A stretch of DNA of 64,000 nt from Croceivirga sp. Lineage in GTDB: Bacteria > Bacteroidota > Bacteroidia > Flavobacteriales > Flavobacteriaceae. Each line of letters opens with the position of its first letter. Position 1 is the stretch's first letter. Below the pieces are notes generated by a model. That model had not been told where the DNA came from. It searched no databases and saw nothing but the letters and a program-made list of their open reading frames with translations. This document shows, piece by piece, positions 7,317 through 61,019 of this stretch. The stretch spans positions 1 to 64,000 of the forward strand of contig JANQKR010000015.1 of NCBI GenBank assembly GCA_028281025.1, given 5' to 3'. Position numbers and translations under genes: made by a program.

Positions 7317-9713
7317 CTAGTTTGTCCCCCCTTCATTATCCTGGGAAGGGAGTACATCGATATGTGGTTTTTTAAAGGTCTTTTTATTGGCAATATTTCG
7401 CTCCAGGGATAGCAATAGGGAAGGGAGCAGGATCAAGTTGGACAACATGGCAAACAGTAAAGTGGCAGAGACCAATCCTCCCATGGCCTGTGTTCCCCCA
7501 AAACTGGAGATGATAAAAACGGAAAAGCCAAAGAAAAGCACTATTGACGTATAGAACATGCTTACCCCGGTCTCCCGTAGGGCATTGTAGACGGATTTTT
7601 TAATGTACCATTTATTGGCCGTCAATTCCTGTCGATATTTTGCCAGAAAATGGATGGTATCGTCTACCGATATTCCAAAGGCAATGCTAAAGATCAAAAT
7701 CGTGGAAGGCTTTATCGGTATCCCCAAAAATCCCATTAGGCCCGCGGTAATGACCAGGGGCAAGAGGTTGGGGACGAGGGAAATCAATATCATGCGAAAA
7801 GAGCGGAACAGGTACGCCATAAAAATTGAAATAAGGCCTACGGCCAATGCCAATGACAGTAATAAATTTTTAATAAGGTATTTGGTGCCTTTAAGGAATA
7901 ATAGCGCTTTGCCGGTCATATAAACATTATAGCGCTCCGCGGGAAAGATTTTTGAAATGGATTTCAACAGATCCCCCTCAATTTCTTCCATTCGCGGGGT
8001 CTTTACATCCTTCATAAAGGTTGTCATTCGTGCAATTTGGCCCGTACTGTCCACAAAACTCTCCAAAAGGTTCCCATTCTCGGAGGATTTTCTGGCCACG
8101 TCCATAATAAAGTTGTTTTCCTGGGTCGTTGGCAATTGGTAATACTTTGGAATCCCGTTATAAAAAGCCTGTTTGGAATACTTTACAAGGTTAACAACGG
8201 ACAGGGTTTTGGAAAGCTCCGGAATTTCATCAATCTCTTGGGAGAGGGCCTCCATACGCCGTAGAGTGGCCAATTTGGCAATGCCGTTCTTTTTTTTGGA
8301 ATCGACAACCACTTCAACCGGCATAATACCATCGAACTCTTTTTCAAAAAATCGAATATCCTGGAAGAACTTGGCATTTTTGGGCAAATCCTCTATCCTG
8401 CTTCCCGTTATTTGTATTTGATAAATTCCGATAATACTTAAAACCAGGACGGTAACTGCCGTAAAATATACCGCAATGCGGTGATTGCGGACTACCCGCT
8501 CCATCCAATTTACAAAAGTATCCATCCATTTTTTGTTCAAATGTTTTAGGTGCTTGTACTTGGGAATGGACATAAAACTATACACAATGGGTATAATGCC
8601 AAGGGAAAGGATAAAAATGCATAAAATACTTAGGGAGGCGACAATTCCAAATTCTTTGAGCAAATCACTATCCAGGATAATGAAGGTTGCAAAACCCAAG
8701 GCGGTGGTTACGTTGGTCATTAAAGTGGCGTTCCCAATTTTGGTAATGACCCGTTGAAGGGAAAGGGCTTGATTTCCGTGTTTTTTTACTTCTTGTTGGT
8801 ATTTATTGATCAAGAAAATGCAGTTGGGGATTCCAATAACAATGATTAGGGGAGGAATCAAGGCGGTGAGGATGGTAATTTCATACTTGAAAAGACCCAA
8901 TATTCCAAAAGTCCACATAACCCCAATGATAACCACACATATGGAAATAAAGGTGGCCCTAAAACTTCTAAAGAAGAAAAAGAATATTAATGAGGTAACG
9001 GCAAGTGCGGCTATAATGAAGTTTCCTATCTCATCGATTATAATCTTTGAGTTCCAAGTTTTTATATAGGGCATTCCAGATACCCTAACGTCCAAATTGG
9101 TCTCATTTTCAAAGTTTTCGACCAGGTTTTCAAGATCGCTGAGAATGAATTCATTTCGAACGGAGGTATTTAAAATATCCTTGTCTAAATAAATGATCGT
9201 TCGTATGGTTCCGCTTTCCTTGTTGAAAATAAGGCTTTCATAAAACGGCAATTCTTGAAATAGTTTCGTTTTGATGGCCGAAACTTCCGCTTCCGAAGAA
9301 GGTTCCTCCTGAATCAAATCCTTGAGTACAAACTCTTGTTTTTCATTGTCTTTGATAAGTTCCTGTAGATTGTCCGTAGAGATGACCAAATTGACCTCTG
9401 GATTGGCTTGAAACTGTTTGCTCAAGCGATTCCAACGATTAAAGTTCCCGGGAAGGAACAAGGAACTGTCCTGTACGGCCAGTACTATGGCATTGTCTTC
9501 CTGTCCAAAAATGGAAACGAACTCTTCATACTGTAAGGTCTCCGGATGATCATCAGGTAGCACATTGGCCTCGGTATTGGAAAATCGCATGTGTTTCCAT
9601 TGCAATCCCATGAATATGGTAATTCCAGTAATGATAAGTAGAATAATAATCCTATTCCTAAGAATAAGTCGCGCGGTACCGGACCAAAACCCTTGCAAAA
9701 ACTCTTTTAACAT
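7317..9713 (-). CDS. RND superfamily exporter (MMPL/SSD-like)
   Basis: This 798-residue protein has the two-fold repeat of RND exporters: one membrane helix, a large periplasmic loop, then five helices, twice. The first loop spans about residues 45-215 and the second about 420-615. Sterol-sensing-like helices such as LTALIPPLIIVIGIPNCIFL and FSIAFGISVDDTIHFLAKYR carry the conserved polar pair (VDD) in the second half. Members of this group move lipids or hydrophobic compounds. No adaptor or outer-membrane partner is nearby. It sits downstream of frr and may be co-transcribed with it. Confidence 0.88.
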   Translation of the reverse strand: MLKEFLQGFWSGTARLILRNRIIILLIITGITIFMGLQWKHMRFSNTEANVLPDDHPETLQYEEFVSIFGQEDNAIVLAVQDSSLFLPGNFNRWNRLSKQFQANPEVNLVISTDNLQELIKDNEKQEFVLKDLIQEEPSSEAEVSAIKTKLFQELPFYESLIFNKESGTIRTIIYLDKDILNTSVRNEFILSDLENLVENFENETNLDVRVSGMPYIKTWNSKIIIDEIGNFIIAALAVTSLIFFFFFRSFRATFISICVVIIGVMWTFGILGLFKYEITILTALIPPLIIVIGIPNCIFLINKYQQEVKKHGNQALSLQRVITKIGNATLMTNVTTALGFATFIILDSDLLKEFGIVASLSILCIFILSLGIIPIVYSFMSIPKYKHLKHLNKKWMDTFVNWMERVVRNHRIAVYFTAVTVLVLSIIGIYQIQITGSRIEDLPKNAKFFQDIRFFEKEFDGIMPVEVVVDSKKKNGIAKLATLRRMEALSQEIDEIPELSKTLSVVNLVKYSKQAFYNGIPKYYQLPTTQENNFIMDVARKSSENGNLLESFVDSTGQIARMTTFMKDVKTPRMEEIEGDLLKSISKIFPAERYNVYMTGKALLFLKGTKYLIKNLLLSLALAVGLISIFMAYLFRSFRMILISLVPNLLPLVITAGLMGFLGIPIKPSTILIFSIAFGISVDDTIHFLAKYRQELTANKWYIKKSVYNALRETGVSMFYTSIVLFFGFSVFIISSFGGTQAMGGLVSATLLFAMLSNLILLPSLLLSLERNIANKKTFKKPHIDVLPSQDNEGGTN

Positions 9714-48300: not shown

Positions 48301-49557
48301 ATGGATTATTTTGTCATAACTAGTATCCTGGTCTTTCTATCTGCGGTATTTGGATATATCAACCTGCGCTTTTTTAAGTTGCCCAATACCATTGGGTTGA
48401 CTTTGATAACCATTTTGTTCACCCTTGCCGTTTTTGCGCTGAGCTATTTTGATGCCACCTTGCTGGAAGCCGAACGCTTTATCATTTCCCAAATAGATTT
48501 TAAGGTGGTTTTACTGGATATTATGCTAAGCTTTTTGTTGTTTGCCGGGGCTTTGCATACCGATTTGCAAAAACTAAGGGAACAACGTTGGCCCGTTTTG
48601 GTCTTTGCCACTTTTGGGGTATTGGTTTCCACATTTTTAGTGGGAACAGCCGTTTTTTACCTGTTGATGGCACTGGGGCTTGAGGTTGCTTACATCCATT
48701 GCCTCCTTTTTGGGGCCCTGATTTCACCGACCGACCCCATTGCGGTATTGGGTATTTTAAAAAAGGCCGGGGCGCCAAAGAAGTTGGAAATAAAAATTGT
48801 AGGGGAATCGCTTTTTAATGATGGTGTTGGAGTGGTCATTTTTCTTACCATTTTTGGAATGGCAAACGGTAGCGGATCTGGTTTTTCACTCACCGGTATT
48901 TTGGAGTTGTTTGGTGTGGAGGTGTTTGGGGGATTGTTATTGGGCCTTTTGCTTGGATGGCTCACCTACTACTTTCTCAAAAAAATTGATGACTATAATA
49001 TAGAGGTCATCATTACCTTGGCAACGGTGATGACAGGTACCATGATCGCAACACACCTCCATGTTTCGGCCCCATTGGCCATGGTCGTGGCCGGATTAAT
49101 GCTTGGGGGCAACAAAACCCGGGAACGTGCCATGTCAAAACTTACGGAAGACTACGTGGACAAGTTTTGGGAACTGGTGGATATTCTATTGAATACCATT
49201 TTGTTTGTTCTTATTGGTATGGAAATGTTGGTGTTGGAATTCAATACCGTTTACATTTATGCCGGACTATTGGCCATCCCTATTGCACTGCTCTGTCGTT
49301 ACCTTTCCTTGATGGTGCCGGTGAAACTATTTCAAAAACGATTGGATTTTGTGCCCAATACCACCTTGATCATGACCTGGGGCGGGTTAAGGGGGGCTAT
49401 TTCCATTGCATTGGCCTTGGGGTTAACACAATCCATGGGACGTGATTTATTTTTGGTAATGACCTATATCATCGTAATTTTTTCCATTTTGGTACAAGGA
49501 CTTACCGTAGAAAAACTAATAACAAAATTGAAATTGAAACCTATCGAGAATGCATAG
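48301..49557 (+). CDS. Na+/H+ antiporter of the CPA1 (NhaP) family
   Basis: This 418-residue protein has 12-13 membrane segments and exchanges Na+ (or K+) for protons. The signature residues are visible: LISPTDPIAVLGILKKAG (about residues 140-158) and GESLFNDGVGVVIFL (about 168-182, with the ion-binding Asp). A second marker is TWGGLRGAISIALALGLTQS near residue 360. Fit to the family is good over the whole length. There is no cytoplasmic regulatory tail. Confidence 0.94.
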   Translation: MDYFVITSILVFLSAVFGYINLRFFKLPNTIGLTLITILFTLAVFALSYFDATLLEAERFIISQIDFKVVLLDIMLSFLLFAGALHTDLQKLREQRWPVLVFATFGVLVSTFLVGTAVFYLLMALGLEVAYIHCLLFGALISPTDPIAVLGILKKAGAPKKLEIKIVGESLFNDGVGVVIFLTIFGMANGSGSGFSLTGILELFGVEVFGGLLLGLLLGWLTYYFLKKIDDYNIEVIITLATVMTGTMIATHLHVSAPLAMVVAGLMLGGNKTRERAMSKLTEDYVDKFWELVDILLNTILFVLIGMEMLVLEFNTVYIYAGLLAIPIALLCRYLSLMVPVKLFQKRLDFVPNTTLIMTWGGLRGAISIALALGLTQSMGRDLFLVMTYIIVIFSILVQGLTVEKLITKLKLKPIENA

Positions 49558-49699
49558 ACGTGCAACAAAACCGGAAGGTAGTGTTTTTTTCCATTGAGCA
49601 GATCCATGGTATTGGCAGACATGTTGTTTCGCCAAAAAGGGGTTTGGGAGTGAGGAAAATCGTCTAATGAATTCATTGTATTGAAATAGAAACCGTTAT

Positions 49700-52060
49700 A
49701 TGAAGTCTATCAAAATTTTTGCTGTCCTTTTATTCTTCATGGCAAGTCTATGCCAAGCCATTGCCCAGGATAAACGCACCTATAAAGTGGGAATCCTGGT
49801 AGATAGGACAAATCCGGAAGTAGCGCCTTTGATCAATAAGTTAAAAAATGAAGTAAAGGCAGTGGTCGGTGAAGATGCCATCATTGTTTTTCCTGAAGAC
49901 GCCATTTTGATCAACAATTTTGATTTGGAACGGGCCAGAAACAATTACGAGCAACTTTTGGCCAGTGATATCGATATCATTTTGGCCTTTGGGGTACTCA
50001 ATAACGAAATTATTAGTCCGCTTGCCGTCCATCAAAAACCTACTATATTGTTTGGAGCGGTAAATAGGGATGTGCAACAATTGGATCTTTCCAAGGCCAA
50101 TTCCGGAATTGAAAATTTCACCTATTTGATAGAATCGGAATCCTATAAAGATGATTTGAACCGATTTAAAGAGCTCAGTGATTTTAAAAACCTGGGTATT
50201 GCCATGGATACCCAAATTGCTGAAATCTTGCCCCTTAAGGAAATCTTTGATGCCGAACTGGCCCGGTTGGAAGCCGATTATCGCTTGATACACTTTGAGT
50301 CCGTTGATGATATCATTGCCAACCTGGATGGGATCGATGCCTTTTACATGGCCGGTGGTTTTTTTATGACCACGGAAGAAAAGAAGGTCTTGGTCCAGGA
50401 ACTTCTCGATCGCAAATTGCCATCGTTTACCGTTAACGGGCCGGCAGATGTGAAATTGGGCTTTTTGGCCACTTTACAATCCGAAGAGAATCTGGACCAG
50501 TTCTTTAGGCGTATTGCCTTAAATATTGAAGCCTATGTCACGGGCACCCCAATGGCTGAATTGCCTGTTTTTATAGATTACAACCCGAGGTTGACGATAA
50601 ACTACAATACCTCTGACGTCATAGGATTTCCTATGAAGTACAGTCTGATTGGGGAAACGGATTTTGTCGGTGAGTTCAGGAATGTCCTGTCCGAAAAAGA
50701 ATATGACCTTTTAACGGTCATTAATGAAGCCTTGGAGCAAAATCTGTCCATTCAGTCCGATCAAAGAGATGTGGATTTAGCCTCGCAGGACGTAAAAACG
50801 GCCACGAGCAATTACTTGCCGTCCCTTACCGCTTCCGGCACGGCGACGTATGTGGACCCAGACTTGGCGGAAATTAGCAATGGACAGAACCCGGAGTTTT
50901 CCACCACAGGAAACCTTACCCTCAACCAAACCGTTTTTTCCGAGGCTGCCAATGCTAATATTGCCATTCAAAAGAAATTGCAAAAAGCGCAACAGGAAGA
51001 TTTTAACGCCTCCCAGTTGGATTTGATCTTTGATGCGGCGAACGCCTATTTCAATGTGTTGATTCTTAAGGCAAATACACAGATACAGGTGCGTAACGTG
51101 GATCTGACCAAAAGGAACCTAGAGATATCCCAACAGAATTTTGAAGCTGGGCAGTCCGGCAAGTCCGATATGCTTCGCTTTAGAAGTGAAATGGCCCAGA
51201 ATACCCAAGCCATGGTCGAGGCCATTAACCAATTGGAACAAGGGTTTTTATTTCTAAATCAGATTTTGAACAATCCTTCCAATCTGGAAATTGATGTTAC
51301 TGATGTGGGCCTGGACGAAGGAATTTTTAAGGAATATAACTACAACGATCTTTTTGCTTTATTGGACAACCCCAGCCTTCGGGAACCATTTGTTGACTTT
51401 TTGATTGAGGAAGCCTATCGAAATGCCCCTGAACTAAAGTCCCTGGGGTATAGCCTTGAAGCCACCGATCGTAACATCCGATTAAACGGCTACGGTCGTT
51501 TTTTACCCACGGTTGCCCTACAGGGGCAGTATAGCTCTACCTTTAATCGTTCCGGGGCGGGGAGTACCGTTCCCCCTAACCTGGGGTTTGGATTGGTGGA
51601 TAATTTTTATACTGCCGGTGCAAGTATCTCCATTCCCATCATCAATCAGAATTTGAACAATATCAACAGACAGACGGCACTTATCCAAAAAGATCAGTTG
51701 GAAATCAACAAGGATAATTTGGAGTTGGGCATTTCGGTAAACGTTAGAAACGGGGTGTTGAATTTGGTGAACCAAATGTCCAATATTCAATTGTCAAAAA
51801 TATCTGAAGAAACGGCAGCCGAGGCCCTGGAGCTTACTCGAGCCTCCTATTCCGAGGGAGCCGTTAACATTGTACAGTTATTGGACGCTCAAAACAATTA
51901 TTTAAACGCCCAACTGGCCAGAGCAAATGCGGTATATAACTTTTTGATCAATGCCCTGCAATTGGAGCGGTTTCTGGGCTATTATTTTCTGTTGAACACA
52001 CCAGAGAAAAATAACGAGTTCAAACAACGTTTTTTTGAATTTCTGAACAACCAAAATTAA
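49700..52060 (+). CDS. TolC-type outer-membrane channel fused to a periplasmic substrate-binding domain
   Basis: This 786-residue protein is a fusion. After the signal peptide (ending about 23, AIAQ) residues ~26-330 look like an ABC-type substrate-binding domain of the PF04392 kind: YKVGILVDRTNPEVAPLINK, SDIDIILAFGVLNNEI, KPTILFGAVNRDV and PSFTVNGPADVKLGFLAT. From about 345 to 775 the protein is an outer-membrane efflux channel with paired helical repeats (LLTVINEALEQNLSIQSDQR, and YSEGAVNIVQLLDAQNNYLN near 715). Usual TolC-type proteins have 430-500 residues. It heads a five-gene operon with an adaptor and an RND pump. I infer that the binding domain presents or senses a ligand at the channel. 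Confidence 0.88.
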   Translation: MKSIKIFAVLLFFMASLCQAIAQDKRTYKVGILVDRTNPEVAPLINKLKNEVKAVVGEDAIIVFPEDAILINNFDLERARNNYEQLLASDIDIILAFGVLNNEIISPLAVHQKPTILFGAVNRDVQQLDLSKANSGIENFTYLIESESYKDDLNRFKELSDFKNLGIAMDTQIAEILPLKEIFDAELARLEADYRLIHFESVDDIIANLDGIDAFYMAGGFFMTTEEKKVLVQELLDRKLPSFTVNGPADVKLGFLATLQSEENLDQFFRRIALNIEAYVTGTPMAELPVFIDYNPRLTINYNTSDVIGFPMKYSLIGETDFVGEFRNVLSEKEYDLLTVINEALEQNLSIQSDQRDVDLASQDVKTATSNYLPSLTASGTATYVDPDLAEISNGQNPEFSTTGNLTLNQTVFSEAANANIAIQKKLQKAQQEDFNASQLDLIFDAANAYFNVLILKANTQIQVRNVDLTKRNLEISQQNFEAGQSGKSDMLRFRSEMAQNTQAMVEAINQLEQGFLFLNQILNNPSNLEIDVTDVGLDEGIFKEYNYNDLFALLDNPSLREPFVDFLIEEAYRNAPELKSLGYSLEATDRNIRLNGYGRFLPTVALQGQYSSTFNRSGAGSTVPPNLGFGLVDNFYTAGASISIPIINQNLNNINRQTALIQKDQLEINKDNLELGISVNVRNGVLNLVNQMSNIQLSKISEETAAEALELTRASYSEGAVNIVQLLDAQNNYLNAQLARANAVYNFLINALQLERFLGYYFLLNTPEKNNEFKQRFFEFLNNQN

Positions 52061-52080
52061 TTGACCAAAACATTTGGAAC

Positions 52081-53166
52081 ATGAAAAAAATACAACAATT
52101 CGGTTTTTTATTGGTATTGAGCGTGCTTTTGTTTTCTTGCGGAGCCGAGGAAAAGAAAGAGGAAAAATCGCTTCGTCCCGTAAAATATATGGAGATTGGT
52201 TTTTTAGGGGGAGAGAAGTCCCGAACGTTTAGTGGTACGGCCAGAACGGATAAGATCATCAATCTTAGCTTTAGAAATTCCGGTATTATTACACAGTTCG
52301 ATTTAAAACTGGGCCAGAACGTGAAAAAAGGCCAATTATTGGCCAAATTGGACAACGTACAGTCCCGTTTGGCTTACGAACAATCAATTACCCAATTGAA
52401 CAGTGCGGCTTCCCAAGTGAATACGGCCAAGTTAAGTCTCAACCGTGTTCGAACACTTTACGAAAAAGGAAGTACTTCCCTAAGTGATTTTGAAGCTGCC
52501 AAAAATTCCTTTAGGAATGCCGAAGAGAGCTATAAGTCTGCAAAAAGGGGGGTGGAAATCCAACAGGAGCAGATCAATTATGGCTATATCTATGCGCCCG
52601 AAGATGGCACCATAGCTTCCGTTTCCGCCGAAATAGACGAGAACGTAAGCCCAGGACAGTCCGTTGCCGTTTTAAATGCCGGTACGGATATGGAAATTAC
52701 CCTGGGTATTCCGGAAAGTATCATTAATGGGGTACATCCCAATATGGATGTCGTAGTGGACTTTACCTCCATAGCGGAAGACCAGTTTAAAGGCAGGGTA
52801 TCCGAAGTGGCCCCAGCAGTGGATGCCAATACGTCTACCTATCCGGTAAGGGTTATTGTTACCAATCCCAGTGATGCGATAAAGAGTGGTATGGCAGCCA
52901 ACGTCACTTTTGATTTTGGCGATTACGATTCAAACAACAATGTTTTGGTTGTTCCTGCCCACGCCGTAGGGGAGGACAGTAACGGGCGTTTTGTTTTTCT
53001 GGTGGAAGGAGAAGGGGAAACGGCCAAAGTAAAGAAGCAGGAAGTTCAGATAGGTAATTTAACCGCCCAAGGCTTTGAAGTAACCTCTGGTCTTTCCTCC
53101 GGACAACGAATAGCAATTGCGGGATTACAGACCCTTTTGGACGGCCAAGAAGTAAGGTTGCAATAA
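52081..53166 (+). CDS. RND efflux periplasmic adaptor lipoprotein
   Basis: This 361-residue membrane-fusion protein has a lipobox (LLFSC, Cys20). The order is barrel-sandwich (VKKGQLLAKLDNVQSRLAY near residue 80), helical hairpin (about 100-160), second barrel-sandwich half (YIYAPEDGTIASVSAEIDEN), beta-barrel, and membrane-proximal domain to the end. It links the pump to the TolC-type fusion protein. Spacing is 20 bases after the fusion gene and 21 before the pump gene. Confidence 0.94.
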   Translation: MKKIQQFGFLLVLSVLLFSCGAEEKKEEKSLRPVKYMEIGFLGGEKSRTFSGTARTDKIINLSFRNSGIITQFDLKLGQNVKKGQLLAKLDNVQSRLAYEQSITQLNSAASQVNTAKLSLNRVRTLYEKGSTSLSDFEAAKNSFRNAEESYKSAKRGVEIQQEQINYGYIYAPEDGTIASVSAEIDENVSPGQSVAVLNAGTDMEITLGIPESIINGVHPNMDVVVDFTSIAEDQFKGRVSEVAPAVDANTSTYPVRVIVTNPSDAIKSGMAANVTFDFGDYDSNNNVLVVPAHAVGEDSNGRFVFLVEGEGETAKVKKQEVQIGNLTAQGFEVTSGLSSGQRIAIAGLQTLLDGQEVRLQ

Positions 53167-53187
53167 AAATACCATAACCTCCACCCA

Positions 53188-56100
53188 ATGAATTTAGCAA
53201 AATTCTCAATTGACAAAAATCGCATCACCTTTATGGTGTTGGCAACGATTATCCTGCTGGGGATCAATATGTATTTCAGCTTATCCCAAGATAGTATGCC
53301 ACCTTATACCGTCCGCGTGGCTACGGTGGTTTCCCAGTTTCCTGGGGCCAGTCCGGAACGGGTTGAGCAATTGGTCACCGACAAAGTTGAAAAAGTGGCG
53401 CAGGAGCTTCCGGAGCTTAAGGAAGTGACCAGTACTTCACGGACCGGGCTCTCTGTGGTAAGTGTTTCGTTAAAGGACGAGGTCTCGCCAGAAACACTCC
53501 AGTCCGTCTGGGACCGTTTACGTCGGAAATTGAATGCCATTGAAGGCCTTCCATCGGGAGTAAACCCTAATTTAAATGATGATGGTATTGGTGATGTTTA
53601 TGGCATTGTTGTGGGCTTGACATCCGATGGGTTCAGTTATTCGGAAATGAAGGACTATGCCGATGATATTAAGGATGATTTGATCAAACTCCCGGATGCT
53701 GCCAAGGTGGAACTGGGTGGGGTACAGGACGAACGTGTTTTTGTGGAATTCGATAATACCCGCTTAAAGGAATATGGCCTATCGGCTTCCAAGTTGCAAC
53801 AGAGCATTGGTGCGACCAATATTTTAAGTTCCGGGGGACAGATCAATGTGGGGGATGAGCGTATTATTTTGGAGCCTACCGGTAATTTCGATTCCGTTGA
53901 GGATATTCAAAATATGTTGATTGCCGTAGGGAATGGGTCCCAATCGGTAAAATTGGGTGATATTACCTCGGTAACAAAAGGATATATCGATCCCCCCAAA
54001 CAAATTGTCAGTGTTGATGGAAAAGAAGCCATCACCATGCATGTTAACCTCAAGGAAGATAAAAATATTGTTTACCTGGGTGAAGCAGTGAATCAAGTAG
54101 TGGCCCAATGGCAAAATCGCCTTCCGGTCGGTCTGGAATTGACCAGAGTGTCTTCTTTGGATGATTACATAGATGTAAAGGTGAGTGATTTTATGGTGAA
54201 CCTCATGCAATCCATAAGTATTGTGTTGGTGGTCATGCTTGTCTTTTTGGGTTTCCGTACGGGATTCGTCATTGCCAGTTTAATTCCGATTGTGACCATC
54301 ATGACCTTGATGCTCATGGGCATTATCAATATGGGATTGAACCAGGTAACGCTGGCTGCGCTCATTATGGCATTGGGGATGTTGGTTGATAATGCCATTG
54401 TAGTGGCCGAAACCATTATGGTAAAGCTCGAGCAGGGCGTGGAAAAGTATAAGGCCGCAATAGAAGCCTTTTCCGAGTTATGGATGCCATTATTGATTTC
54501 TACCTTAACCACTTCTGCCGCATTTTTGGCCTTCTACCTGTCCCCAACAACCATGGGGGATATTGTTGGGCCCATTTTTGTGGTGATAACCATAGCGTTA
54601 ATGTCGTCTTGGCTAATCGCACTTACCGTAATTACCATGTTCTGCTATATGTTTCTAAAGGTAGCGCCCAAAGGGGAACAAAAGCCCAGCCTTGTGGATC
54701 GCATTATCAACTCGGCCAAAGGCTACTATAAGGATTTGATATTATTGGCGCTAAAGCATAAATACAAAGTTATTGTGGGCATATTTTTGGCTTTCTTTCT
54801 TTCACTGTACGGATTTGGTTTTATCCCCTTCATCTTTTTCCCGGACAGTGATCGTAACATGATCACCATTGACATTAATTTGCCCGAGGGTAACAAAATA
54901 GAACGCACAACAGATGTGGTGAACCAAATAGAAGGCTTCATGGCAGATTCCCTTAAAGTCAATGCAGAAAGGGACAAAGGCATTGTAAGTTGGTCCTCTT
55001 ACATTGGGGAAGGACCCGAATCGTATGATTTGGGCTATTCCCCGGACGAAGCCAATTCAAACTACGCCCACATTTTGGTGAACACTACTTCCTTTGAAGA
55101 AAATGCCGAAATGGTAAAACGGCTGGATGGCTATTCCTTTAGAAATTTTCCCAATGCGGATATTAAAGTTGGGCTATTGGGTTCTGGCGGTGGAGGAACC
55201 CCGATAGAAATTAAAGTATCCGGACCGGAACCGGACGAACTTTCCACCATAGCGGAAAGTGTAAAGCAGAAGTTGTCGGGAGTGGATTTCACGAAGAATG
55301 TTAAGGATGACTGGGGCCCAAAGAGTAAAAAGTTTTTGATTGAAATTGATCAGAACAGGGCCCAGAATGCCGGTATTACCAGTTCTGATATTGCCACATC
55401 GCTACAAACTGTGTTGGACGGTTTTCAAACCGGTGAGTATAGGGAGGACAATAAATCCATACCTATTGTTATGCGGAGTGGCGATAGCCAGCAACAAACC
55501 CTGGCTTCTTTGGAAACCTTAAATGTGTATTCGCAAAACAGTGGTAAAAGTGTACCCCTATTACAAGTTGCCTCCATAGTACCCACTTGGCAATATGCCA
55601 AAATAAAAAGACTGGACTTGAGGCGTACCATCAATATAAGCAGTGAATTGCGCGAGGGGGGCAATGCCTCCGCAATCATGTCAGTGGTCACCCCTTGGTT
55701 GGAAGAACAGGTCAATGGGGCGTGGCCTTCCGGGTATACCTACGAATTGGGAGGTGACGCCGAGCAAACTGCAGAAAACATGGGTCCCATTATAGGCTAT
55801 CTTCCTATTTCCGGATTTATCATTGTATTGCTATTGATCATTCAATTCAATTCAGTGCGTAAAATGACGATGGTCGTGCTTACCATTCCCCTTGGGATAA
55901 TTGGGGTGGTCATTGGACTGTTGGTCTTTCAGGAAGCTTTTGGGTTTATGCCCTTTTTGGGCGTCATTTCCTTGGCCGGTATTGTGATCAATAACGCCAT
56001 TGTACTCATTGACCGTATGGAAGTGGAACTGGCGGCGGGTAGAACAAATCAGGATTCGGTCATTGCGGCTTGCCTACAACGGTTTCGACCCATATTGTTA

Positions 56101-56301
56101 TCCACTTTTACAACAATTTTGGGTTTGGTGCCCCTCTACCTTTCCGGGGGTGAAATGTGGGAAGGAATGGCCATAAGTATTATGATTGGACTCCTATTTG
56201 GCACCATTATCACCCTGCTATTCATACCTTCGCTTTACAGTGCCCTTTTCAAGGTCAGTTATAAAGGGTATCAATTTAATGAAGCACTTTTGGATGGGTA
56301 G
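53188..56301 (+). CDS. RND efflux pump (HAE family)
   Basis: This 1037-residue inner-membrane transporter has the standard layout of 12 helices and two large periplasmic loops (about 35-335 and 570-865). The porter domain starts with SLSQDSMPPYTVRVATVVS. In helix 4 the sequence GMLVDNAIVVAE shows D401 followed by N402, where AcrB has two Asp. In helix 10 the AcrB Lys position lies in GIVINNAIVLID, without a Lys. So the proton relay differs from AcrB, although such variants occur in other HAE members. With the adaptor and fusion channel it forms a tripartite pump. Confidence 0.94.
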   Translation: MNLAKFSIDKNRITFMVLATIILLGINMYFSLSQDSMPPYTVRVATVVSQFPGASPERVEQLVTDKVEKVAQELPELKEVTSTSRTGLSVVSVSLKDEVSPETLQSVWDRLRRKLNAIEGLPSGVNPNLNDDGIGDVYGIVVGLTSDGFSYSEMKDYADDIKDDLIKLPDAAKVELGGVQDERVFVEFDNTRLKEYGLSASKLQQSIGATNILSSGGQINVGDERIILEPTGNFDSVEDIQNMLIAVGNGSQSVKLGDITSVTKGYIDPPKQIVSVDGKEAITMHVNLKEDKNIVYLGEAVNQVVAQWQNRLPVGLELTRVSSLDDYIDVKVSDFMVNLMQSISIVLVVMLVFLGFRTGFVIASLIPIVTIMTLMLMGIINMGLNQVTLAALIMALGMLVDNAIVVAETIMVKLEQGVEKYKAAIEAFSELWMPLLISTLTTSAAFLAFYLSPTTMGDIVGPIFVVITIALMSSWLIALTVITMFCYMFLKVAPKGEQKPSLVDRIINSAKGYYKDLILLALKHKYKVIVGIFLAFFLSLYGFGFIPFIFFPDSDRNMITIDINLPEGNKIERTTDVVNQIEGFMADSLKVNAERDKGIVSWSSYIGEGPESYDLGYSPDEANSNYAHILVNTTSFEENAEMVKRLDGYSFRNFPNADIKVGLLGSGGGGTPIEIKVSGPEPDELSTIAESVKQKLSGVDFTKNVKDDWGPKSKKFLIEIDQNRAQNAGITSSDIATSLQTVLDGFQTGEYREDNKSIPIVMRSGDSQQQTLASLETLNVYSQNSGKSVPLLQVASIVPTWQYAKIKRLDLRRTINISSELREGGNASAIMSVVTPWLEEQVNGAWPSGYTYELGGDAEQTAENMGPIIGYLPISGFIIVLLLIIQFNSVRKMTMVVLTIPLGIIGVVIGLLVFQEAFGFMPFLGVISLAGIVINNAIVLIDRMEVELAAGRTNQDSVIAACLQRFRPILLSTFTTILGLVPLYLSGGEMWEGMAISIMIGLLFGTIITLLFIPSLYSALFKVSYKGYQFNEALLDG

Positions 56302-56303
56302 TA

Positions 56304-57386
56304 ATGAAGCGACGAAATAAGGACCTGAAAAAGCTTTTGAAACAGCTTGGGCAGTCAATTGTTTTTTGGGTGATTGCCATGGCGCTTTTTGCCATTTTTA
56401 GATATTACGGCCTCGCCGAAGAAGAAGGGATATTCACTCCTGCTGAGTATAGCTTTTCCAGGGCGTTGTCCATGTTCACACTGTTTGGGCTACTTATCGG
56501 TGTTGTCGGTGCATTTATTGAATTCGTTCTGGACAAATACCTCTCCAAAAGAGTCTCCATTGGACTCAGTTTAATCATAGGTTTCCTTGTTTACCTCATT
56601 ACCACAGTGATACTTTCCACCCTGGTCATTGAAATCACCAATCTGGTGTACGACATGGGAATCAACAATAAGAAAGGGTGGTGGATATTCGACAAGACGT
56701 TTTGGGCCATCATCCTATACATTGCCATAGCTGGATTGGTTTTATCGTCCATTCAAATTGCGAATGACAAATTTGGTAAAGGGGTTTTCTTGAAAATGCT
56801 CTTTGGAAAGTATAAAGAGCCCAAAGAGGAGAAACGTATTTTCATGTTTTTGGACCTCAAATCTTCCACGGCAATAGCAGAGCAGTTGGGCCATTTGAAA
56901 TATAGTCAACTCATTCAGGATTGTTTTTATGATTTGAATGAGGTAGTGCCCAATTATGATGCGGAAATCTATCAATATGTCGGTGATGAAGCCGTACTAA
57001 GTTGGCCATATGAAAAAGGGTTGTCGAACAACAATTGTGTGAAACTTTTCTTTGCCTTCAAACAAAAATTATTAACAAAAAAGGACTACTACACCAACAA
57101 ATATGGGGCCTTTCCTGAGTTTAAGGCCGGTTTGCACGGTGGCGTGCTGATGGTGGCCGAAGTTGGGGTGGTCAAAAAGGAAGTAGCCTATCATGGGGAT
57201 GTCATAAACACATCGGCCCGTATACAGGCAGAGTGCAATTCATATAAAGTGCCGATCCTTATTTCTGAAAAACTATTGAAGGACCTGATTTCAGATGATT
57301 TTTTTTCCACAAAGTATCTTGGCGATGTGCTCTTGAAAGGAAAGCAGAAAAAAGTAAACATCCATACGGTAATTACCAATGCTTGA
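56304..57386 (+). CDS. Membrane-bound class III nucleotide cyclase
   Basis: This 360-residue protein has four membrane helices (about 17-35, 54-76, 86-108 and 132-152) and a C-terminal cyclase domain (about 178-360). The metal aspartates are D184 (FLDLKSST) and D228 (YVGDEAV). The transition-state residues are N302 and R306 (GDVINTSARIQ). By my hand alignment the purine-selecting pair, Lys/Asp in adenylyl and Glu/Cys in guanylyl cyclases, is Q224/A295, so the substrate cannot be predicted. It starts two bases after the pump gene and overlaps the channel gene by eight bases, so all five genes are one operon. Confidence 0.87.
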   Translation: MKRRNKDLKKLLKQLGQSIVFWVIAMALFAIFRYYGLAEEEGIFTPAEYSFSRALSMFTLFGLLIGVVGAFIEFVLDKYLSKRVSIGLSLIIGFLVYLITTVILSTLVIEITNLVYDMGINNKKGWWIFDKTFWAIILYIAIAGLVLSSIQIANDKFGKGVFLKMLFGKYKEPKEEKRIFMFLDLKSSTAIAEQLGHLKYSQLIQDCFYDLNEVVPNYDAEIYQYVGDEAVLSWPYEKGLSNNNCVKLFFAFKQKLLTKKDYYTNKYGAFPEFKAGLHGGVLMVAEVGVVKKEVAYHGDVINTSARIQAECNSYKVPILISEKLLKDLISDDFFSTKYLGDVLLKGKQKKVNIHTVITNA

Positions 57387-58044
57387 AAAATTGTATGATA
57401 GCCGTTTTGAATTATTTCTGTCCAGTCAGGTGGCCATTTTGTTCGGCTCATTGATTATGCCGGCCGCTTTGTTCGAAACGGTTTTGGATCCCATACTTTT
57501 TTTGATCAACCTACTTGCCGGGATATTGCTTATTTCCAAAAAACCGAGGTTAATGTGGTTCTGTGTTGGAGTGCTGGGCTTAAGTGCAATTGTGTTCATT
57601 GTTTCAACATTGTTGGGGAAAGCATCAAAGGAATTGGGCTTTCTTCGTTTAGGGGGCTATTTCCTGTTCTACCTGGTGGTTTCCTTTGAGATAATCAGGC
57701 AAGTCTGGTATGCCAAACGCGTAAACAAAAATGTAATATTTGGATTGGTCAGTGGATTTATCTCCTTGGGTCTTATCGGTTTTTTTATATGTATGAGCAT
57801 AGAAATGGGCACTCCCAATTCCTTTCAAGGCGCATTCCTGGGAATGCCGGAACGGCCGGAGTTTGTGGCGGAACAGTTGATGTATTTTAGCTTCATAACG
57901 TTAATGACCATCGGTTACGGGGACATCATTCCAATTACCAGCCTTGCACAAAAAGCAACACTTTTAATAGGATTGCTCGGTAATTTTTATCTGGTGATCA
58001 TTACTGCCGTAGTTATAGGCAAGTTTATTAACCAATCCAAATAA
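57379..58044 (+). CDS. K+-type ion channel
   Basis: This 221-residue protein has about six hydrophobic segments and one pore loop. The loop carries the K+ selectivity filter in TLMTIGYGDIIPIT (TIGYGD at residues 177-182), followed by a last helix. There is no cyclic-nucleotide-binding or RCK domain after the pore, so a direct link to the cyclase product is not evident from the sequence. The eight-base overlap with the cyclase gene suggests coupled translation. It is the last gene of the operon. Confidence 0.85.
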   Translation: MLEKLYDSRFELFLSSQVAILFGSLIMPAALFETVLDPILFLINLLAGILLISKKPRLMWFCVGVLGLSAIVFIVSTLLGKASKELGFLRLGGYFLFYLVVSFEIIRQVWYAKRVNKNVIFGLVSGFISLGLIGFFICMSIEMGTPNSFQGAFLGMPERPEFVAEQLMYFSFITLMTIGYGDIIPITSLAQKATLLIGLLGNFYLVIITAVVIGKFINQSK

Positions 58045-58442
58045 TTGGTATCAATCTTTTGAAAGCAGGGAAATAATTTTCACATGGCCATTTTTTCCAT
58101 TTTGGTCATCTGCCATGGATTGAAAATACCGACTTTACCGTTTTTTTATGAAGACTTCATGTAAATTTCACATAGTTGGACTTACTTTGACCGGCTAGAC
58201 AGGTGCCATATAATAGTAATATAACTTAAGTTCGGCATAATTTGCTATCAACCAAAATCCGTCAAATTGAGTGGTTTTTCGATACATTTTTGCTATCGCA
58301 AAAACACTCAAAATGACGTAATTTTCTTATGTGGAACTAACGGTAATATCGTTCATCAGTGAAGGAATATCACGTAACTTCCGGTGGTATTGGTTCAGAA
58401 AGCGATAACTAGGGGTTCAAAAATGGCAATCGTACAAGGGAA
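58045..58442. other. Intergenic region with a palindromic repeat
   Basis: About 400 bases lie between the channel gene and the pyruvate kinase-like gene. CATGGC / GCCATG at 58083-58117 could be a weak terminator, but without a T run. A long imperfect palindrome lies at 58260-58318. No open frame of note is present, and I found no exact promoter box for the downstream gene. Confidence 0.5.
58260..58318. repeat. Imperfect palindromic (REP-like) element
   Basis: Two 25-base arms (58260-58284 and 58294-58318) differ at only a few positions when one is reverse-complemented; the loop has nine bases. The ends CGTCAAATTGAGTG and CACTCAAAATGACG resemble intergenic palindromes that recur in flavobacterial genomes. 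Confidence 0.7.
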
Positions 58443-60272
58443 ATGAAAATAAAAAAGGCAATCGTTTTAGGGGTTATAGCGCAATTGGACGCCATCATAG
58501 CCAAAATGAATGAAGATGAAGAGCGTCTAAAAGAAACTTTGGGGGATGTAAGCCCCTATCATGAAAAAAGCGCCCAAAACCTTGCCAATTATGGCTCTTT
58601 CCGAAGTTTTGATGTGCGGAAAATGCAAGAACACCTTAAAAATTTAGGTCTTACCCGTTTTGCCAATGCCGAAGGGCATATCAAAGCGAGTGTACTCACA
58701 ATTCGCTATCTCTTGGGTCTTACCGTTGCGGAACATGAAAAAGAAGCCCTGAAGGGGCAATGGTCCATAAAAAAAGGGAAAAAAATATTGGCGAGAAACA
58801 CTAAAAACCTACTTGGCGAGGGCGTTAGCGAAAGAAGGGTCCGGATTATGGTCACACAACCCAAGGAGGCCGCTGATGACTACGAAATGGTAAAACAAAT
58901 GATTGAAAAAGGGATGGACTGTGCGAGGATCAACTGCGCACATGATTCCCAGGAAGTTTGGTCGAAAATAATATCCAATATCAAAAAGGCGGCACAGGAA
59001 CTCAACAAAGAAGTGAAAATTGCCATGGATTTGGCCGGACCCAAGATACGGACCGGTAAGATTGTCCCTGGACCACGGGTATTGCGTTGTAAACCGAAAA
59101 AGGATGCCTTTGGTAAAGCAATCGAACCGGGAATGATAATCCTCGTTCCAGAATCGGAATATGTGCCATTGCCAAACATGCTTCCCATGAAATCGGGGGA
59201 TTTGGGTAAACTGCAAATCGGCCAGGTGCTTTCCTTGGTGGATGCAAGGTCAAAACACCGACAACTCAGGGTAACGAACTGCAACAATACCAATGTGGAG
59301 GCCGAAACGATGCAAACGATTTATTTTGAACCTGGTTTGGTCCTTAATGCGACTACCGATGAAATGTTGGAATTGACCGTTGGGGAAATCCCACCAAAGG
59401 AAAACGCCCTGGTACTTAAGGTCGATGACGAAATACGTATTCATAAAGAGGATATTCTAGGGACTTCCGCCAAGTTTTCGGACGAAGGTGTATTGGCACA
59501 ACCCGCGATGATATCCTGTCAACTGCCCGAAGTATTCTCGTATATAAAGGAAGGGGATCGCGTATTCTTTGATGATGGCAAAATAGCGGGTGTTATTACT
59601 GAGGTCAACGAAGTCTATTTTAAAGTAAAAATTACGTTGGCCAAAGAAAATGGATCCAAGCTTAAAGCGGAGAAGGGTATTAACTTTCCCGATACCCAAT
59701 TAGGCTTCTCGGGTCTGACCCTCAAGGATAGGGAAGATCTTGTGTTTGTTTCGGAAAACGCCGATATCGTGAACTTTTCCTTTGTCAACCGCCCTAAGGA
59801 TGTTACAGAACTCTATGACGTGCTCAAGAAGCTCAATGCATTGGAGCGCATGGGAATCATACTAAAAATTGAAACCCAATTTGCATTTGAGAATTTGGTC
59901 CCCATCCTTCTTGAGGCCATGAAAACGGAAAATGTTGGTGTGATGATCGCTCGGGGTGATTTGGCCATAGAAACGGGATGGGAAAATATTGGTCAGGTCC
60001 AACAGGAAATCGTATCCATTTGTGGAGCTGCCCATGTACCTGTTATCTGGGCCACACAGGTATTGGAAAACTTGGCCAAAAGTGGCCTGCCATCACGTTC
60101 AGAAATCACCGACGCCACAACAGCCTTAAAGGCGGAATGTGTCATGCTCAACAAGGGTCCTTACATCAATGAGGCCATTAGCTTGCTCAACACCATACTT
60201 TCCAAGATGGAAAGCTCACAGCATAAGAAGGAGTCCATGTTGCCGCGACTTAAATCTTTAATGATCCAATGA
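58443..60272 (+). CDS. Atypical pyruvate kinase-like protein
   Basis: Pyruvate kinase makes ATP and pyruvate from phosphoenolpyruvate and ADP. This 609-residue protein has the core (DCARINCAHD at 159-168, MDLAGPKIRTG, GIILKIET with K475 and E477, VMIARGDLAIE with D506, IWATQVLENL). Several features are unusual. There is a 130-residue N-terminal helical extension. The inserted B domain is about twice the usual size (about 206-408). MLNKGPY stands where MLSGETA is usual. The C-terminal regulatory domain is missing. K201 replaces the Glu linked to K+ dependence. It could be a K+-independent kinase or a related enzyme. Confidence 0.83.
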   Translation: MKIKKAIVLGVIAQLDAIIAKMNEDEERLKETLGDVSPYHEKSAQNLANYGSFRSFDVRKMQEHLKNLGLTRFANAEGHIKASVLTIRYLLGLTVAEHEKEALKGQWSIKKGKKILARNTKNLLGEGVSERRVRIMVTQPKEAADDYEMVKQMIEKGMDCARINCAHDSQEVWSKIISNIKKAAQELNKEVKIAMDLAGPKIRTGKIVPGPRVLRCKPKKDAFGKAIEPGMIILVPESEYVPLPNMLPMKSGDLGKLQIGQVLSLVDARSKHRQLRVTNCNNTNVEAETMQTIYFEPGLVLNATTDEMLELTVGEIPPKENALVLKVDDEIRIHKEDILGTSAKFSDEGVLAQPAMISCQLPEVFSYIKEGDRVFFDDGKIAGVITEVNEVYFKVKITLAKENGSKLKAEKGINFPDTQLGFSGLTLKDREDLVFVSENADIVNFSFVNRPKDVTELYDVLKKLNALERMGIILKIETQFAFENLVPILLEAMKTENVGVMIARGDLAIETGWENIGQVQQEIVSICGAAHVPVIWATQVLENLAKSGLPSRSEITDATTALKAECVMLNKGPYINEAISLLNTILSKMESSQHKKESMLPRLKSLMIQ

Positions 60273-60374: not shown

Positions 60375-61019
60375 TTAGTTGTCAGTGGAAATGCTGCTTT
60401 TTATCAGGGCATTCGTTAAATCCTTGGCATACTTGTTCACGGTATTGGTTAAGTTGGATGGGTCTTTGACCTCAAAACGTCCTATCCATTGGAGGTTATC
60501 ACCAGAATCTTCCGTAAGTCGGTAAAGACTACTCTCAAAAACATATTTGGTACCACTTCTCAATTGGTCCGGTTCCCATCTTGTGACCGGATAATAGACC
60601 AGATAGCGACCAAACCTTCCTGCCCGTGTTGGAACATAGGCAGTGGATGTGTTTCCTGGAATAACATCGGTGTATTCTTCCGTATTGATCAAATTGGTAA
60701 CGATCACACCATCATAACCACCGGCCATGAGGGTTTTCTTTAAAATGACCAATTCAGTTTCGGAATACTTCTTGTTTAAATCAATGACTTTATTGGCCGC
60801 ATGGGAAGCCGTTCCTTTCACGCCCACTTCCTTCAATTGGGAAACCACACTGTTTTCAAATTTGATTCGAGCAGTGTTGTCCTTTGAACGTCCCACAACG
60901 AGTATCTTTTCATAGGGCTTCTTGGTTTCGCCCACATTTTCGGAACTGGTCAAATACGAAGAACATGCAGAAAACAGGAGGACAACGATGGTTCCTGTAA
61001 AAACGGTTTTTCTTTTCAT
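60375..61019 (-). CDS. Lipoprotein of unknown function
   Basis: This 214-residue protein has a lipoprotein signal (lipobox LFSAC, Cys19). The mature part begins KPYEKILVVGRSKDNTARIK, followed by a predicted alpha/beta region (ELVILKKTLMAGGYDGVIVT) and a Tyr-rich middle. Small lipoproteins with such a start may be DUF4136-like, but I cannot confirm this. It is convergent with the pyruvate kinase-like gene and divergent from rimP. Confidence 0.72.
   Translation of the reverse strand: MKRKTVFTGTIVVLLFSACSSYLTSSENVGETKKPYEKILVVGRSKDNTARIKFENSVVSQLKEVGVKGTASHAANKVIDLNKKYSETELVILKKTLMAGGYDGVIVTNLINTEEYTDVIPGNTSTAYVPTRAGRFGRYLVYYPVTRWEPDQLRSGTKYVFESSLYRLTEDSGDNLQWIGRFEVKDPSNLTNTVNKYAKDLTNALIKSSISTDN

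Follow-up and report, generated by a model that had tools for sequence, protein, structure and literature searches.

The 64,000-nucleotide stretch analysed here, referred to as the window, belongs to a Croceivirga sp. genome of 5.1 Mb in 49 contigs (GenBank assembly GCA_028281025.1, contig JANQKR010000015.1) and contains, on the forward strand, a compact run of five genes in which an RND export pump is encoded together with a nucleotide cyclase and an ion channel. The first gene (49700-52060) encodes a TolC-type outer-membrane factor (Pfam OEP/TolC, 6.4e-51) with a predicted type-I substrate-binding domain at its N-terminus (~49760-50686), the OEP part starting at ~50711. It is followed by the RND adaptor, or membrane fusion protein (52081-53166; HlyD_D23, 3.5e-22; NCBIfam TIGR01730, 1.1e-72, above cut-off), whose start looks by eye like a lipobox, by the RND pump (53188-56301; ACR_tran, 3.7e-165), by a membrane class III nucleotide cyclase (56304-57386; Guanylate_cyc, 9.3e-10) with a hydrophobic N-terminal part and a catalytic part from ~56820, and by a six-helix channel of K+ type (57379-58044; Ion_trans_2, 3.1e-10). 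A previous sequence-only reading of the window had described the five same-strand genes and their spacing of 20, 21 and 2 bases followed by an 8-base overlap between cyclase and channel, and the coordinates of the open reading frames confirm it; the channel filter TIGYGD that it named is likewise present. What it had overlooked is a CPA1-type cation/proton antiporter (48301-49557, forward strand; Na_H_Exchanger, 6.3e-64; NCBIfam a_cpa1 below its cut-off), separated from the first gene by 142 bases. The pump, the adaptor and the TolC-type factor are co-encoded, as recognised by Pfam and NCBIfam, which qualifies the locus as an RND tripartite export system, and Pfam found no ABC permease or ATPase gene among the seven genes at 48301-60272. 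A scan for promoters and terminators was uninformative (15 found against 20.5 in shuffles; 14 against 11.3). Each of the proteins is a member of a known family; literature searches, limited to open-licence papers, gave no description of a pump-channel operon with a binding-domain TolC, in line with the earlier statement that no described system has this gene set.

Judged from gene order in related genomes, the conserved core of the locus consists of four genes, namely the fused TolC, the adaptor, the RND pump and the channel. The nearest named loci in the genome scan are those of Flavobacteriaceae bacterium GF1, Croceivirga, Allomuricauda and Flagellimonas. A first set comprised the best 80 of 122 relatives; it leans to close relatives and overlaps partly with the genomes of the genus, phylum and family samples described below. 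In 76 of these loci the pump is complete (L069, L075, L082 and L086 are cut), and in 69/76 the channel follows it on the same strand, at a distance, measured with mechanical starts, of at most 150 bases in 50/69 and of at most 10 bases or with an overlap in 39/69. The frames of the L058 channel (broken in two) and of the G605 channel (one internal stop) were both scored as present. Other genes intervene between pump and channel in 19/69 loci: a cyclase in seven (L049, L050, L054 with one more gene, L056, L060, L079 and L111) and other genes in twelve, those searched encoding DUF3575, Tle1-like and PsiE proteins. In Aquimarina (L088, L094, L098, L103, L105, L112) the genes in this slot encode a lipoprotein and a Tle1-like lipid hydrolase, identified by Pfam on the L098 hydrolase alone, and in some loci also a DUF3575 protein. 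As a control, the commonest family after the channel occurs in 9/67 loci and the commonest one before the fusion in 21/80, with control clusters built at E 1e-8 and the channel count based on matches to the window's channel at 1e-5; the gene order just past the channel is not conserved.

The same arrangement recurs on a larger scale. In the Flavobacteriaceae sample the binding domain was found in 54/397 genomes (own included), belonging to 47/237 genera, and in 53 loci, G640 and the window being excluded, the channel lies directly behind the pump in 36, with no room for another gene between, and behind one insert in six; these 42 loci represent 35 genera and were counted by distances between match positions rather than by locus-by-locus reading. 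By distance, 11/53 loci have the channel in neither position; two of these, G025 and G622, are split over contigs, and the contig with the pump's end (L156 and L186, respectively) carries a channel directly behind the pump. In the window's genus, domain, cyclase and channel occur in the same order in 7/11 genomes (own included), and in the remaining four no binding-domain match was found. The domain was also found in 18/395 genomes of the phylum sample (own included) and in 21/195 genomes of the class of G275; by match positions, G275 itself has a channel near the domain (L133), 12 bases behind the pump; contig ends limit the count outside the family, the G310 contig stopping 461 bases behind the pump. 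The link between pump and channel thus reaches far outside the genus, and an adjacency limited to the species or genus, which the sequence-only reading had named as an argument against joint function, is not what is observed. Its tie of the pump to both cyclase and channel holds well for the channel, whereas for the cyclase it holds only in some lineages, and its five-gene order does occur, but as a variant of the four-gene core.

The channel is a protein of 221 residues with six helices and a TxGYG filter between two pore helices, features that point to a channel of K+ type. Its model ends at residue 221, the last helix spanning residues 188-220, and no nucleotide-binding domain was found either by Pfam, which gives only Ion_trans_2, or in the model, which stops with the last pore helix. 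A version of the coupled circuit proposed earlier, in which the cyclase product gates the channel directly, could appeal to the 8-base overlap of the two genes and to the cyclic-nucleotide-gated channel SthK, which is among the weak matches of the channel model in a Foldseek search where nothing was better than E 0.04. However, given a channel that has no domain able to receive the nucleotide and that accompanies the pump mostly without a cyclase, direct gating was rejected and we regard it as very improbable; because the channel is without such a domain, the cyclase product most likely acts elsewhere.

In the channel tree, the proteins of L051, L052, L060 and L079 belong to one clade (99/98), and those of the window, L049, L050 and L053 are found elsewhere, next to Maribacter-type channels (97/91), whereas the RND tree groups the window with all of L049-L053, L060 and L079 (100/100). 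Because the two trees disagree, a channel was exchanged in place while the pump stayed. Over 68 loci, the correlation of pairwise distances is 0.94 for binding domain and pump, 0.88 for adaptor and pump, and 0.66 for channel and pump: the position of the channel is kept, and the data fall short of a tight co-evolution of the two proteins. Furthermore, L148 has a member of this channel family (37-43% identity) behind an adaptor-RND-TolC operon that is not related to the one described here. One locus (L155, genome G028) has, besides the copy behind the pump, a second and divergent channel gene (7676-8305, reverse strand) 289 bases upstream of the fusion gene.

The cyclase behaves as a lineage-specific insert. 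Copies placed in the slot between pump and channel belong to the window's group and its Flagellimonas kin (L174 included), to L129, to L111 and to L171, where no channel is seen in the following 3.4 kb; these are four separate RND lineages. In other arrangements, Roseivirga (L076) has a cyclase behind the channel and L172 a convergent one behind the pump. Mapped on the RND tree, the presence of the cyclase needs 8 changes, at least 6 of them forced by well-supported branches, and in the family sample 3/53 loci have a cyclase in the slot. The five-gene set as the basic unit was rejected, the cyclase being patchy on the RND trees. In the cyclase tree, the 11 in-slot copies fall in one clade of 13 (98/99), so that one cyclase subfamily is tied to this slot; the other two members come from G003 and G021, genomes without a binding-domain match. 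The pattern may derive from repeated transfer or from an old presence with many losses. All 28 cyclases aligned keep, in the Guanylate_cyc domain, the metal-binding Asp pair, the Asn and the Arg, and all 28 have Gln at the position of the purine-reading Lys, roles that we assign to these residues on the assumption that they are those of class III cyclases in general; the Gln leaves the substrate uncertain. Cyclases with membrane effectors also suggest a phage defence of the Pycsar type, and two weak PADLOC matches of the cyclase to PycC (5.1e-6 and 6.5e-5) go in this direction. Neither the channel nor the other five proteins searched matched anything in PADLOC, and the channel has no nucleotide sensor; this explanation was rejected as the least probable of those considered.

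A single-sequence Pfam search with the N-terminal ~300 residues of the TolC fusion gave no match. A profile of 13 rows, instead, matches the solved type-I substrate-binding proteins 3lkv, 6hni and 3lft (8.8e-9 to 4.4e-5), and an AlphaFold2 model of the domain (pLDDT 90.1) has the same three structures as its closest Foldseek matches (E 1e-11 to 3e-13). Profile and model concur in assigning to the domain a TrpX-like type-I substrate-binding fold, bearing out the substrate-binding domain postulated at this N-terminus, for which a structure prediction had been proposed as a check. According to PMC6816091, each of the three proteins holds an aromatic amino acid (Tyr, Phe or Trp); in our reading of the profile alignment, the two positions indicated there as deciding the choice of ligand align with other residues here, and therefore no aromatic ligand is claimed. 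That a periplasmic ligand binds beside the exit duct is plausible given the modelled fold, whereas the further proposal, that the pump exports this same ligand, is a guess. Most matches to the domain fall in open frames of ~770-1,010 residues, a length that agrees with the fusion; the exceptions are G025 (413 residues, at a contig edge), G640 (fragments) and G272. In this last genome the domain match is in a frame of 945 residues that has no TolC match (L142, 7212-10049, forward strand); by eye, the start of this frame looks like a membrane permease and the next gene like an ABC ATPase, perhaps an importer fusion.

Over its whole length, the pump has as nearest solved chains MexK (9xwg, 1.8e-171) and 6vej (6.9e-161), the latter presumably TriC. 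In a residue alignment, the proton-site residue D407 and also R971 are kept in 90/90 pumps, and the AcrB-type partner positions carry Asn, at D408 in 90/90 and at K940 in 89/90. An unusual energy coupling was considered on account of the two Asn and rejected: PMC5719797 describes many RND members with one acidic residue and losses of D408 and K940 that tend to co-occur, so that on this account RND membership is unaffected. In Marinicella and an Alcanivoracaceae bin (Gammaproteobacteria; L061, L062, L065, L066), the fusion pump, there without a channel, is nested in the Bacteroidota part of the RND tree, which suggests an interphylum transfer.

From these elements we propose, tentatively, that the RND export pump is tuned by a ligand and has a K+ conductance of its own, which would hold up the membrane potential during export; the cyclase would add signalling. 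The binding domain of TolC would sense or capture a small ligand beside the exit duct, and the pump would take in protons at the D407 site. The channel, presumably made in step with the pump, would pass K+ while the pump draws protons, so that the membrane potential, and hence export, could be maintained; the cyclase present in some lineages most likely produces a second messenger that is sensed by a separate receptor and not by the channel. The more specific version, in which the channel is a fourth component of the pump giving electrical support (K+ out, protons in), with tuning by the ligand-binding domain on the exit duct and, in some lineages, a report to the cell through a membrane cyclase specific to the slot, seems unlikely.

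The antiporter is consistent with this ion circuit. Eight of the 80 loci (L049-L053, L060, L070, L079) have it upstream and on the strand of the operon, and it is also upstream in L174; in L064 it is found past the channel, on the opposite strand. Furthermore, in four other genera (L188-L191) a member of the window's channel family and an antiporter with 44-47% identity to that of the window are 0-10 bases apart. The pairs of L188-L191 are located near genes for Rieske-type redox and Crp-type regulator proteins, as found by a Pfam run on L189. This neighbourhood of channel and CPA1-type antiporter, here and in L188-L191, also recalls the protection that we take Kef systems to provide: the channel would release K+ upon arrival of a toxic compound and acidify or hyperpolarise the cell, the pump removing the compound side by side. 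The channel carries no ligand-binding or redox-sensing domain, and such an arrangement appears rather improbable.

The main rival to a K+-supported pump is shared regulation, nearly as likely, in which pump, channel, cyclase, antiporter, lipoprotein, PsiE, TerB-like and LytTR proteins would form a co-regulated island expressed under envelope or ion stress, with pump and channel not functionally coupled. Several families, counted as single-link clusters, do recur in the 80 loci: a small lipoprotein-like family with no Pfam match near the pump in 37 (including L088, L098 and L113), a secreted-looking helical protein of ~140 residues in 36 (L096, L102, L111, L081 and others), whose gene immediately precedes the fusion gene in 21 loci, TerB-like proteins in 22 and a LytTR cluster in 19. 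In the window, a gene of the lipoprotein-like family lies outside the operon (60375-61019, reverse strand). A histidine kinase and a LytTR regulator are encoded directly upstream in L175. The family sample, moreover, has 12 cyclases no more than 20 kb from the pump, two of them being a tandem pair in G621, against 0.82 expected under even placing and independent genomes (68 of 70 cyclase rows were used, excluding the second fragments of two broken genes). What speaks against a stress island is that the other genes shift place and strand, whereas the channel stays behind the pump.

In favour of the pump with its own K+ conductance we count this position (69/76 and 42/53, against 9/67 for the commonest gene past the channel), the gaps of at most 10 bases or overlaps in 39/69 loci, the replacement of the channel in place in the window's lineage, the recurrence of the same channel family at the unrelated operon of L148 and in the antiporter pairs of L188-L191, and the invariant D407 and R971, together with the argument, in PMC5546932, that AcrB is driven by the membrane potential. 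Several points weigh against it. The channel/pump distance correlation is 0.66 against 0.94 for the binding domain, and members of the channel family stand alone in L145, L147, L149-L154, L183-L185 and L187, with no pump or antiporter matches beside them. Moreover, no channel was seen beside the pump, within the DNA covered, in 7/76 loci of the first set, the four gammaproteobacterial ones among them, and in 9/53 family loci once the split ones are resolved, and outside Flavobacteriaceae a channel beside the pump was seen, mainly by match positions, only in G275 and in Roseivirga L076.

The usual view of RND pumps is that of self-sufficient machines powered by the proton gradient. That 35 genera of the family sample have a channel gene behind the pump suggests that some pumps may manage the electrical cost of export themselves, an idea that is testable in culturable marine Flavobacteriaceae, and the fused binding domain could offer a direct route to the natural ligand of the pump.

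Compared with known systems, each part of the locus has familiar and distinctive traits. MexJK-type and TriABC-type pumps likewise work with an adaptor and a TolC-type partner, whereas here the TolC protein has a binding domain fused to it, the pump gene has a channel gene behind it, and Asn occupies the D408 and K940 positions. The binding domain shares fold and profile match with TrpX-like proteins (3lft, 6hni/CD0873 and 3lkv/VC_1101), but they serve ABC importers, whereas here the domain is joined to TolC. With K+ channels such as SthK, Kv and the KcsA pore, the channel shares the filter T-I-G-Y-G-[DE] and the pore helices; unlike them, it has no nucleotide-binding, RCK or other cytoplasmic domain and no row of S4 arginines. 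Finally, the cyclase has the Guanylate_cyc domain and the metal Asp, Asn and Arg residues of class III adenylate/guanylate and Pycsar cyclases, from which it differs in the Gln at the purine-reading position, in being membrane-bound and in its tie to a pump operon.

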